Shown here one piece after another: positions 3,487-26,979 of a DNA stretch of 64,000 bases. The translations under genes and the position numbers were made by a program. Under the pieces are notes generated by a model. That model was not told where the DNA came from, did not search any database, and was given only the letters and a program-made list of their open reading frames with translations. The stretch spans positions 188,625-252,624 of the forward strand of contig NZ_QBFD01000029.1 of assembly GCF_003335585.1 (NCBI RefSeq), in the 5' to 3' direction. Position 1 is the stretch's first letter, and the number at the start of each line of letters is the position of its first letter. The stretch comes from Sulfitobacter sp. DFL-14. GTDB lineage: Bacteria; Pseudomonadota; Alphaproteobacteria; Rhodobacterales; Rhodobacteraceae.

Positions 3487-3524
3487 AGACCTGTCATTTT
3501 TGACATGTCATGTATGACATGTCG
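3487..3524. repeat. Three-unit array of 10-bp palindromes with 14-bp period
   Basis: Three near-identical decamers, AGACCTGTCA (3487), TGACATGTCA (3501) and TGACATGTCG (3515), are spaced exactly 14 bp apart. TGACATGTCA is a perfect palindrome. The same array with a similar flank occurs at 26448-26485, and an extended form at 26256-26335. It lies in a 241-bp spacer between convergent genes, so it is unlikely to be an ordinary promoter operator. The same spacer has a small perfect hairpin (ATGCCTG and CAGGCAT, 3635-3654). Confidence 0.8.
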
Positions 3525-10983: not shown

Positions 10984-11225
10984 AATCTGCAGGACATGCG
11001 CGGGCCAAAGCATGTAAAAGTTACCCTCAGCCATAGCGAGGCCGCTTGGTGCAATAGCACGGAACTTCAGCAAGAAACCGTAAGTGCTATCATCTCTGGG
11101 ATCGCACCACCGTCCTAGACGCACCCCACAAATAAGACCCCCACGCGCGCGCAGGGGGTCCACTCATCTCACGTCAACCGGCTTCTCGCAGCTTTCACTG
11201 CACCCCGATGCTGCCGCATCCCTGC
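10984..11225. other. Gene-free spacer before the 148-bp repeat array
   Basis: No supported gene. The segment keeps the lower GC of the preceding gene and then returns to high GC. A hairpin with GACCCCC and GGGGGTC arms around a GC-rich loop (about 11137-11160) could be a transcription stop but lacks a clear T tract. Together with the following array and the stretch to 11982 it makes almost 1 kb without genes. Confidence 0.6.
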
Positions 11226-11788
11226 GGCCTACGGACCGAGGTCGGGCGCGGGTCTCATACTGGGGTCTGCCGTAGGGTGCGTGCTCTGCACGCACCGCAG
11301 CCTCACCGACCGTATCGGTGCGTGCAAAGCACGCACCCTACAAGGTTTCTGTCCCCTTGACCTTTCGCGAGACGGCCTTCGGCCCGAGGTCGGGCGCGGG
11401 TTTCATGTTGGGGTCTGCCGTAGGGTGCGTGCTCTGCGCGCACCGCAGCCTCGCCGACCGTACCGGTGCGTGCAGAGCACGCACCCTACAAGGTTTCTGT
11501 CCCCTTGACCTTTCGCGAGACGGCCTTCAGCCCGAGGTCGGGCGCGGGTTTCATGTTGGGGTCTGCCGTAGGGTGCGTGCTCTGCACGCACCGCAGCCTC
11601 CCCGACCGTATCGGTGCGTGCAAAGCACGCACCCTACAAGGTTTCTGTCCCCTTGACCTTTCGCGAGACGGCCTTCGGCCCGAGGTCGGGCGCGGGTCTC
11701 ATATTGGGGACTGCCGTAGGGTGCGTGCTCTGCACGCACCGCAGCCTCACCGACATCATCGGTGCGCGCCGAGCGCGCACCCTGCGGG
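11226..11788. repeat. Tandem array of four 148-bp units, each with a 26-bp-stem hairpin
   Basis: The string GTAGGGTGCGTGCTCTGC begins at 11272, 11420, 11568 and (slightly diverged after it) 11716, exactly 148 bp apart. Each unit has an inverted repeat with 26-nt arms beginning GTAGGGT and ending ACCCTAC, an 18-nt loop (first copy 11272-11341), and a 78-nt spacer containing CTTGACCTTTCGCGAGACGG. The first three copies are nearly identical; the fourth has a decayed right arm. Short open frames across the array are by-products of the repeat. The palindrome ends match a separate hairpin at 39451-39504, so this is a REP-like family. Confidence 0.9.
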
Positions 11789-24567: not shown

Positions 24568-26136
24568 ATGGCTAACCTTACGGAGACCAACACGCCGGTG
24601 CCGGAAACCGGCGTTGCTGATCTGGGCCTGTTTGCAAAACCTCTGTTCGAAGACCCCAGCGCGCGCAAGCTGTCGCGGGTGGGGGTTGTCGATGTGGGGT
24701 CAAACTCCGTCCGGCTGGTGGTTTTTGACGGCGCGGCGCGATCGCCCGCCTATTTCTACAACGAAAAGATCATGTGCGCCCTGGGTGCAGGCATGGCCGA
24801 GACCGGGCATCTGTCGCCGGAGGGCCGGGTGCGCGCCCTGTCGGCCATGCGCCGTTTCCGCAAGCTGGCAGACAGCATGGGCCTGAGCGAACTGACGGTT
24901 GTGGCCACGGCAGCGGTGCGCGATGCCAGCGACGGCGCGGCATTCTGCGAAGAGGTGCTGCGCGACACGGGCTTGCGGATCTGGGTCATCGACGGCGAGG
25001 AAGAAGCGCGGCTTTCGGCGCAGGGGGTTCTGCTGGGCTGGCCCGGTGCCTATGGCCTGGTCTGCGACATCGGCGGCTCCTCCATGGAACTGGCCGAAAT
25101 TTCCGGGGGCCGCGTGGGCCGGCGGGTTTCCTCGCAACTGGGGCCGTTGAAGCTGCGCGATATCAAGGGCGGCGCAAAGGCGCGGAATGCGCAGATCAAG
25201 GAGGTGATGGAGGGCCTGCAGGAACGTATGGGCGTCCAGCGGGACCGGTTGTTCCTGGTGGGCGGGTCCTGGCGGGCCATCGCGCGCATCGACATGGTGC
25301 GCCGGGGCTATCCCCTGCATGTGCTGCACGAATACCGCATGACGCCGCGCGCCGTCAGCGCCACGGTCAAATTCATCAAGCAATCGAACCTGGACGACCT
25401 GCGCAACGAGGCGGGCGTTTCATCGACCCGGATGGCGCTGGTGCCCTATGCGGCAGAGGTGCTGAGCCGCCTGGTCAAGACCTTCAAGCCCAAGGATATC
25501 GCGATTTCCAGCTATGGGATCCGCGAGGGGATGCTCTACGAACAGATGCCGCAGCGCCTGCGCGACCGGGATCCGCTGATCGAGGCCTGCCGCTTTGCCG
25601 AGGCCAAGGATGCCCGCACACCGGGTTTCGGCAAGGTCCTCTTCAACTTCATTCTGCCGCTCTACAAATCCAGTTCGCCGCAGCGCAGGCGGCTGGTGAA
25701 GGCCGCCTGCCTGTTGCATGACGTCAGCTGGCGCGCGCATCCCGATTACCGTGCCGAGGTCTGTTTTGACAATGCGACGCGGGCCAACCTGGGGGGCCTG
25801 AAGCACTCCGAACGGGTGTTTCTGGGCCTTGCCCTGCTGCACCGCTATTCCAACAAGCGCGAGAACACCCGTTTTGAAGATCTCTACCAGATGATCGACG
25901 AGCGGGCGCGCAAAGAGGCCGAGATTTTGGGCAAGGCCATGCGGTTCGGGGCGATGTTGTGGATGAACAAGGATGAAGATCGCGGCGAACTGCGTTGGTT
26001 TCCCAAGAAAAAGCTGCTGCAACTCTGGATCACCGAAGACATGATGCCGCTGTTCGGCGAAGTGGCCGAAGCGCGTCTGAATTCGCTTGCCGGATCGTTG
26101 GAGGCCTCGGTGGAGTTGAAGACGGCCAAGGGTTAG
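24568..26136 (+). CDS. ppx: Exopolyphosphatase / Ppx-GppA phosphatase
   Basis: Protein of 522 residues. The actin-like ATPase-fold domain carries GVVDVGSNSVRLVVFD (phosphate 1 loop) and CDIGGSSMELAEI (phosphate 2 loop), and the C-terminal half is an HD-like helical domain typical of long Ppx (CLLHDVSWRAHPDYR). It degrades polyphosphate processively and possibly pppGpp. The start at 24568 has CAGGAG at five to seven bases. It likely shares a transcript with ppk1. Confidence 0.92.
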   Translation: MANLTETNTPVPETGVADLGLFAKPLFEDPSARKLSRVGVVDVGSNSVRLVVFDGAARSPAYFYNEKIMCALGAGMAETGHLSPEGRVRALSAMRRFRKLADSMGLSELTVVATAAVRDASDGAAFCEEVLRDTGLRIWVIDGEEEARLSAQGVLLGWPGAYGLVCDIGGSSMELAEISGGRVGRRVSSQLGPLKLRDIKGGAKARNAQIKEVMEGLQERMGVQRDRLFLVGGSWRAIARIDMVRRGYPLHVLHEYRMTPRAVSATVKFIKQSNLDDLRNEAGVSSTRMALVPYAAEVLSRLVKTFKPKDIAISSYGIREGMLYEQMPQRLRDRDPLIEACRFAEAKDARTPGFGKVLFNFILPLYKSSSPQRRRLVKAACLLHDVSWRAHPDYRAEVCFDNATRANLGGLKHSERVFLGLALLHRYSNKRENTRFEDLYQMIDERARKEAEILGKAMRFGAMLWMNKDEDRGELRWFPKKKLLQLWITEDMMPLFGEVAEARLNSLAGSLEASVELKTAKG

Positions 26137-26255
26137 CACGGGTCGCCCAGGCTTGCCGCTGCGCCTTGCATCCGGTTTTCGCGCCTGTCCAGGCTTTGCG
26201 TTTTACGCTTTGCGCTTTGCGCCGCCAGCCGTTGCCATCTGCGCCCTGCAGCTGC

Positions 26256-26335
26256 AGACATGTCATGCATGACATGTCATTTTAGACAGGTCTTGTATGA
26301 CATGTCATTTTAGACAGGTCTTGTATGACATGTCC
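26256..26335. repeat. Six-unit palindrome array with exact 14-bp period
   Basis: Decamers start at 26256 (AGACATGTCA), 26270 (TGACATGTCA), 26284 (AGACAGGTCT), 26298 (TGACATGTCA), 26312 (AGACAGGTCT) and 26326 (TGACATGTCC), every one 14 bp from the last. The four-base linkers are TGCA, TTTT or TGTA. Alternation of the two palindrome types makes a 28-bp higher-order repeat. All full-consensus units are perfect dyads. The array sits in a convergent spacer with no adjacent promoter. Confidence 0.88.
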
Positions 26336-26447
26336 TGTGTGATCCGCTGCTTCGACCGGTCGGGCGCGCATCCCGCGAATCCCGGTGGGCGAAGGGGCGG
26401 CACCTCCCCATGTCCCAAACTGTCGCGAAAGAGGGCAGCCTAAATCA

Positions 26448-26485
26448 AGACATGTCATTTTTGACATGTCATGCATGACATGTCG
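26448..26485. repeat. Three-unit palindrome array with 14-bp period (second copy)
   Basis: Decamers at 26448 (AGACATGTCA), 26462 (TGACATGTCA) and 26476 (TGACATGTCG). Order, linkers (TTTT then TGCA) and the following GTCGTCC plus about 20 partially matching bases correspond to the array at 3487-3524, so these are two copies of one dispersed element. Confidence 0.82.
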
Positions 26486-26577: not shown

Positions 26578-26979
26578 TCAAAGATCGATCTGCGGTGCGG
26601 GCCCGGTCGGCGCCTCCGGCTCTTCCAGCGGCGGCTCTGGCTTGCGCCGGATGATGATGTCCCCGTTCGGCAGGATCTCCGGCGCCTCATAGACGCTCCA
26701 GTCCTCAACCTCGTCCAGAATCTCGCCCAGTTTCGGCCCCATCTCCTTTGCGAAGCTGCGCAAGGCGGGTCCCATCTGGTCAGCCAGGTCTTCCAGCCCG
26801 TCGATTGCGGGGGCCATTTCCTTCATGATGCCTTCCATGAACATCTGCGCGCCCCGTTCCATCAGGGACAGGCCACGCTCGTCTTCCTCCTGCGCCTGTG
26901 CGGACAGGGGAAGGCAGATCAACAGGGCAAGACCGGCAAGATGTTTCATAGGGGACAATTTAGCACGAATGCGCGCCAT
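26578..26979 (-). CDS. Secreted acidic protein of unknown function
   Basis: Protein of 133 residues. A signal peptide is apparent (MKHLAGLALLICLPLSAQA before QEEDE), followed by a mostly helical Met- and Glu-rich region (MERGAQMFMEGIMKEMAP) and a proline-rich tail after the conserved LPNGDIIIRRKPEPP. An ATG at 26979 overlaps the stop of the upstream gene (TAATG) and has AGGGGG before it, which supports this longer start over the ATG at 26949. Close relatives are sometimes labelled AAA+ ATPase, but no P-loop exists. Periplasmic; role unknown. Confidence 0.72.
   Translation of the reverse strand: MARIRAKLSPMKHLAGLALLICLPLSAQAQEEDERGLSLMERGAQMFMEGIMKEMAPAIDGLEDLADQMGPALRSFAKEMGPKLGEILDEVEDWSVYEAPEILPNGDIIIRRKPEPPLEEPEAPTGPAPQIDL

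Follow-up and report, generated by a model that had tools for sequence, protein, structure and literature searches.

In classical REPs, the palindrome has GTAG (or GTGG) or CGTC as an unpaired tag at one of its ends, and the elements adjoin a RAYT gene. Whether extragenic palindromes of this kind are selfish debris or useful gene ends is an old question, for which the repeat described here provides a compact case. In one account of REPs, these elements are located mostly between convergent or codirectional genes, and roles in RNA have been proposed for them (PMC3733652). For the terminator stems of Bacillus cereus, paired changes are known (PMC5381666).

The six-unit array treated here is one copy of a dispersed genome-wide repeat family, which occurs in a few marine bacteria. 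This family is REP-like but without REP tags, its palindromic apex being fixed and its arms variable. The window is the whole stretch of 64 kb that was analyzed (G000:C29:188625-252624) and belongs to a 5.7-Mb genome of the Sulfitobacter group in 47 contigs, termed G000. It was compared with the sister species Sulfitobacter sp. EhC04 (G007), with the relative S. aestuariivivens TSTF-M16 (G010), and with further genomes inside and outside the genus. A survey of part of the open-access literature revealed no description of a repeat made of GACATGTC pairs.

The arrays in the window

The arrays of the window and their neighbors are as follows.

24568-26136, plus strand: left neighbor, Ppx/GppA phosphatase family (Pfam; start from the codon-usage caller)
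26256-26335: six-unit array in 14-bp phase (sequence, TRF)
26257-26306: units 1-4, forming one hairpin with mismatches in the stem in the predicted fold (RNA fold)
26284-26339: 28-bp tandem repeat (units 3-4, then 5-6), which lengthens the array (TRF, comparison with G007)
26449-26484: three-unit array in the same intergenic region as the six-unit array (TRF, sequence)
26578-26949, minus strand: right, convergent neighbor without a Pfam match (codon-usage caller, Pfam)
3488-3523: three-unit array between convergent genes (TRF, sequence)

The first-pass annotation had described six palindromic decamers of two alternating types at 14-bp intervals between convergent genes. The spacing is exactly 14 bp and the units start at 26256, 26270, 26284, 26298, 26312, and 26326 as described, reading AGACATGTCA, TGACATGTCA, AGACAGGTCT, TGACATGTCA, AGACAGGTCT, and TGACATGTCC in order, but perfect palindromy over ten positions is limited to two of the six units (26270 and 26298). 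The perfect 8-bp palindrome GACATGTC is present in four of the six, and AGACAGGTCT (units 3 and 5) is imperfect at its centre and holds GACAGGTC in place of GACATGTC. The two types do appear to alternate, which is due to a 28-bp repeat (TRF period 28, 2.8 copies, 94% matches). The orthologous array of G007 consists of four units, and the array of the window is a four-unit hairpin (26257-26306) with an added 28-bp repeat. The predicted RNA fold of 26236-26360 has a z-score of -4.2, and 0 of 200 shuffles were equally stable. The placement between convergent genes was confirmed, with the Ppx/GppA gene on the plus strand facing an ORF without a Pfam match on the minus strand.

Two further arrays, which were absent from the first-pass annotation, were found on follow-up. 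At the place of the array at 26449-26484, G007 has a single unit and 28 bp less; the fold of this array is weaker (z -2.7, 3 of 200 shuffles equally stable). The syntenic place of the array at 3488-3523 carries a two-unit hairpin in G007 (z of the window copy -2.1, 7 of 200 shuffles equally stable). Within the 64-kb window, GACATGTC recurs at a distance of +14 four times and of +28 three times, and it is the sole perfect 8-bp palindrome which recurs at any spacing of 9-30 bp. An Rfam scan of the window at gathering thresholds gave no match to any RNA family.

A dispersed family of hairpins at gene 3′ ends

A genome-wide search, proposed along with the first description of the array, revealed a scattered family. 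Exact GACATGTC-N6-GACATGTC pairs occur 39 times in G000 and the reversed-pattern control 0 times; at up to 2 mismatches, 74 pairs were found and one in the control. At least 38 arrays were read, some copies with 1-2 mismatches lying outside the set read. Of these 38, 37 are intergenic and spread over 31 regions. The arrays read occupy 11 of the 47 contigs, thinly, and this distribution lends no positive support to the role for a nucleoid or segregation protein that had also been proposed. The duplicates L001, L003, L009, L014, and L015 were excluded from the counts.

One GACATGTC pair is located in-frame inside an open reading frame (L012:1501-1522; L187:8001-8022 in G007). It is kept in G007, apparently also in G010 (L040), and is probably driven by the protein sequence. 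As a coding-sequence copy, which G007 has at the equivalent coding position, L012 was dropped from the counts, and together with its orthologue L187 it was excluded from the arm, T-tract, and region statistics.

The commonest copy has two units and the form arm-GACATGTC-ATTTTT-GACATGTC-arm′, in which arm′ is the reverse complement of arm. The basic stem-loop thus consists of a variable arm, GACATGTC, an AT-rich spacer of 6 nt, a second GACATGTC, and a complementary arm. The arm pair CAAATGAA...TTCATTTG is found at many loci, CCCTCCCGTGTA...TACACGGGAGGG at L005, and ACACATGAA...TTCATGTGT at L010. Given this layout, the 14-bp step corresponds to a 10-bp palindrome and a 4-nt loop. The spiral of binding sites suggested at first gains no positive support, as a two-unit stem-loop with complementary arms is not predicted by a spiral.

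The symmetry of the arms is present in both genomes. In the 19 two-unit copies of G000, the arms pair contiguously over 6.2 bp on average, compared with 2.1 bp for arms combined across loci, and in 22 copies of G007 over 7.7 bp, compared with 2.6 bp; for both genomes, no permutation out of 5000 attained the total observed (0/5000 each), many copies in these comparisons sharing their arm type by descent. For the pair adjoining the core, the counts are 8 A-T and 7 T-A among the 19 copies of G000, and 13 A-T and 6 T-A among the 22 copies of G007. Four of 19 and three of 22 copies, respectively, are without any arm stem. Perfect stems of 22-23 bp are found at L005 and L263, and some arms are GC-rich (L004, L005). 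The outer spacers of four-unit arrays are complementary to each other, as with ATGCAA...TTGCAT at L024, and the array therefore folds as one long hairpin. The fold z-scores of four other arrays are -11.2, -6.6, -6.5, and -9.0, so that a stable stem-loop, as expected of an intrinsic terminator, is present, albeit weaker in the two three-unit arrays of the window (-2.7 and -2.1). Directly beside the arrays at L016, L037, L174, and L177, short tandem repeats with a unit of ~6-14 bp were observed.

The array-bearing regions of G000 were typed by the orientation of the flanking genes. Of the 30 typed regions, 17 are convergent, 12 codirectional, and 1 divergent, and one further region is untyped. 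The background, regions of at least 100 bp in 204 kb of G000 (n = 68), which include the array-bearing regions of the window itself, comprises 8 convergent, 36 codirectional, and 24 divergent regions. The convergent excess (17/30 vs. 8/68, binomial p 4e-9) and the divergent deficit (1/30 vs. 24/68, p 4e-5) are based on a codon-usage gene caller which misses genes with unusual codon use. It missed the cargo genes at L033 (see below), so that of the two arrays at this locus, both scored as convergent, one is codirectional. Of the 18 distinct arrays read in Roseovarius azorensis and a Rhodobacteraceae MAG, 10 are convergent, 7 codirectional, and 1 untyped (20 rows, of which L273 and L275 are the same place). 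With 37 intergenic arrays in 31 regions and this distribution of types, the suggestion of the first-pass annotation that the array belongs to a repeat family rather than being an operator is supported. An operator array as the main reading was rejected on the single divergent region among 30 and on the flanking proteins checked with Pfam (5 + 10 + 6), which have no common theme.

In the 7-8 nt past the core, the T fraction is 0.48 on both strands (82 strands), against a background of 0.19. Past the full stem it is 0.25 vs. 0.19, and because this is barely raised, a canonical intrinsic terminator is not established.

With moderate confidence, the copies are regarded here as a dispersed REP-like family of extragenic hairpins of some Rhodobacteraceae, which most probably acts in RNA at gene 3′ ends. 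The founding unit would be the stem-loop, in which the middle 4 nt of the spacer form the loop. Since GACATGTC is itself palindromic, both DNA strands present an identical apex, and both mRNAs of a convergent gene pair would consequently end in the same structure. Arrays may then have been lengthened by in-register duplications of 14 or 28 bp, which we propose as the cause of the exact 14-bp phase. The copies would have been scattered by some copying process and then kept at gene 3′ ends. Assuming that transcription passes through it, the hairpin in RNA could serve in two-way termination or as a protecting 3′-end stem-loop, with an effect on termination or on RNA stability; it is probably a two-way 3′-end element. 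The fixed 8-mer is not explained by structure alone.

Conservation in the sister species and in other genera

A syntenic array is present in G007 at 20 of the 31 regions of G000, and a 21st (L005) was recognized by position, with one mismatch. This amounts to 21 of the 22 regions for which the corresponding place in G007 was seen. The exception is the L013 region, where the 518 bp of G007 do not contain the motif. The places in G007 were drawn from exact matches only, and the retention of the core at those 20 sites therefore partly reflects discovery, as they were found through the motif itself. Arrays absent elsewhere and not conserved in relatives, an outcome that would have spoken against the first interpretation, were thus not what was found, with 21 regions kept in G007 and one lacking. 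Seven places in G007 have no counterpart among the arrays of G000, and the three of them that were resolved (L170, L171, and L194) belong to islands described below.

In six multi-unit orthologous array pairs, 3 of 88 unit sites and 16 of 102 spacer sites have changed, counting sites not fixed by the search (Fisher p 0.006). If all units are counted, 4 of 184 unit sites have changed (p 4e-5). At L030/L191, all four units are kept and all three spacers changed. The arms were compared at 12 orthologous sites, namely 11 of the 20 intergenic orthologue pairs and L005, and of 144 pair positions, 36 have changed on one side only, 5 on both sides with compensation, and 5 on both sides without it. Strong compensatory evolution of the arms had been expected and was not found between orthologues, so that the claim of pairing rests on the comparison of arms within and between loci. 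Because orthologous arms change mostly on one side, the strict RNA-structure reading is weakened. The stronger conservation of the units than of the spacers leaves room for protein binding as such.

At the deoD-like/DUF1989 locus (L033:1939-3632, L192:7968-9657), two GACATGTC hairpins are located in direct repeats in both species (112 bp, 95%; 119 bp, 89%). The cargo between them is a PhyH-like gene in G000 vs. HxlR and metallo-beta-lactamase genes in G007, and no transposase was found between the two hairpins in the segment of either species. At 13 of 14 other Sulfitobacter loci read, the DUF1989 gene is close by.

Among 35 same-genus relatives, exact pairs occur in two only, G007 (30) and G010 (4, one of which looks like the coding site), and 24 genomes outside the genus contain none. 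Downstream of ppx in other Sulfitobacter, the facing gene is located at -15 to +82 bp in 24 of 28 loci read; the remaining loci have one facing gene at 374 bp, one ORF of 111 bp, and two times no gene call. By eye, the motif was not seen in the sequences downstream of ppx at these 28 loci. Likewise, ten loci which by eye seem to have the same neighbor as the L011 site are without the motif, with distances of -3 to 5 bp in eight of them and 28 and 75 bp in the others. As the same genes nearly abut without it, the hairpin is not needed in other Sulfitobacter species.

At up to 2 mismatches, pairs are found in R. azorensis (35), in the Rhodobacteraceae MAG (72), and in Roseovarius sp. UBA3070 (7), the reversed control being 0 in each. 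The stem TACATGCCCCTGTA...TACAGGGGCATGTA is an example from the MAG. At the three places measured in the two Roseovarius genomes, the arm stems are 2, 0, and 1 bp long; Roseovarius therefore shares the core rather than the long stem, its arms pairing over 0-2 bp only. Outside Rhodobacteraceae, contiguous stems of at least 6 bp were found at 7 of the 119 matches listed, and the 7 Rhodobacteraceae matches listed in the same scan have stems of 12, 11, 8, 7, 2, 1, and 0 bp. Nannocystis (L046-L162) accounts for most of the GACATGTC-N6-GACATGTC matches listed outside Rhodobacteraceae, with mostly unpaired arms; Pseudomonas, Actinomycetes, and others are also among them. These pairs were treated as an unrelated use of the word. 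The sister species share ~20 copies at the same places and each has copies absent from the other, and in other genera the 8-mer pair is combined with different arms; hence constraint can be measured separately for the word, the 14-bp register, and the pairing.

Alternative readings and comparison with known systems

Whole intergenic islands are present in one of the sister species and absent in the other. For three copies of G007 (L170, L171, L194), the surrounding islands measure 383, 578, and 505 bp, and the corresponding places in G000 are 1, 0, and 62 bp long. The copies may be a selfish, non-autonomous mobile repeat (MITE- or REP-like) without host function, whose hairpin would serve some transposase or nuclease, a reading that is tentative and on balance unlikely. 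It would explain the accumulation between convergent genes as the least harmful insertion, and it is consistent with the patchy presence among relatives (2 of 35 within the genus, 0 of 24 outside), with the one-sided decay of the arms, and with paralogous flanks that are alike. The latter extend over ~100-340 bp at 65-89% in G007 (L168, L170, L171, L176, L182, L189, L192, L194), and over 140-264 bp at 70-85% in the four-unit group of G000 (L019, L020, L024, and the window copy at 3488). It also agrees with the content of the islands, which hold other dispersed repeats of ~100 bp. Neutral decay, however, predicts otherwise than that units change less than spacers (3/88 vs. 16/102), and no linked transposase was found, the Y1_Tnp match of G000 having GTAG hairpins of its own. 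Slightly more weight was given to the selfish reading because the search pattern had a part in how the retention in G007 was read and the Roseovarius copies hardly pair.

The islands at L170:7718-8100, L171:7761-8338, and L194:7809-8313 contain several such repeats, one with ends like AGCGTTTCGGGAT...ATCCCGAAACGCT and another with at least 15 blast hits in the G007 stretches read. Among three presence/absence sites read by eye, CTAG was seen at both ends in one only, possibly a target duplication. A terminal inverted repeat at the unit ends was not noticed.

A RAYT-driven REP was considered and rejected. At 22.6 bits, the single Y1_Tnp match of G000 falls marginally short of the Pfam cut-off of 23 bits; it is a gene at L260:1350-2379 (G000:C29 near 180468), 8 kb before the window, which from its sequence appears to be RAYT-like. 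Behind it come nine GTAG-tagged hairpins at intervals of ~55 bp and another in opposite orientation, which are its own and not of the GACATGTC family. Within 1.5 kb of Y1_Tnp matches, GACATGTC was not found in G000, G007, or G014. Within 25 nt outside the core, GTAG was found on 0 of 82 strand-sides, GTGG on 3, and CGTC on 2, with background rates of 0.02, 0.09, and 0.11, respectively, so that CGTC is below background in the family. A 148-bp tandem repeat of 3.8 copies at 11225-11783 of the window carries GTAGGGTGCGTGC...GCACGCACC hairpins resembling classical GTAG-type REPs.

A further explanation, which appears doubtful, is a DNA-binding array, in which a dimeric protein would bind GACATGTC palindromes ~1.3 helical turns apart and form a roadblock or structuring site between converging units. 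Conservation of the 8-mer and of the 14-bp register alongside changing spacers (L030/L191) would fit such a protein, as would the recurrence of the 8-mer pair in R. azorensis (35) and the MAG (72) with a reversed control of 0 each, the R. azorensis copies showing hardly any arm pairing; the complementary arms of G000 and G007 are left unexplained by it. Moreover, lone GACATGTC sites show no enrichment, with one found over 140 kb of other stretches and 1.7 expected, and only 1 of the 30 typed regions is divergent.

Both kinds of explanation can be combined, at a similarly low likelihood: a dimeric protein may read GACATGTC on the duplex or on the hairpin, and the array would be a protein-bound two-way insulator between converging units, derived from a mobile repeat that was domesticated with its own host factor, of which the direct-repeat copies may bound exchangeable cargo (L033/L192). 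Should GACATGTC indeed be recognized by a protein, that protein would represent a new type of 3′-end or insulator factor in Rhodobacteraceae.

Very improbable is an origin of arm symmetry and 14-bp arrays as functionless products of replication slippage or template switching at an inverted repeat, which would suit the perfect 22-23 bp stems at L005 and L263, the differences of 28 bp between the species, and the short tandem repeats beside four arrays (L016, L037, L177, L174), but does not account for the recurrence of a single 8-mer in 31 regions and in further genera, or for the placement at 3′ ends.

Three described systems come closest to the family. With MITEs it has in common that it is non-coding, dispersed, and present or absent between sister species, with a length of ~100 bp in the better-conserved copies. 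It differs in that no terminal inverted repeat was noticed and that the possible CTAG duplication is found at one of three sites.

Like bidirectional intrinsic terminators, the GACATGTC hairpin is located between convergent genes and can be read from both strands, and its copies have an A-rich left and a T-rich right arm adjoining the core. It departs from these terminators in the invariable 8-mer of its stem, in arms that are GC-rich in some copies, and in having no clear T tract past the full stem.

With REPs and BIMEs, the family shares the character of small dispersed extragenic palindromes which fold as hairpins and are located chiefly downstream of genes. In contrast to them, the GTAG tag is absent (0/82) and CGTC is found in 2/82, the copies are fewer, arranged in tandem 14-bp phase and not beside the Y1_Tnp gene, and the apex is a fixed pair of 8-bp palindromes flanked by variable arms.
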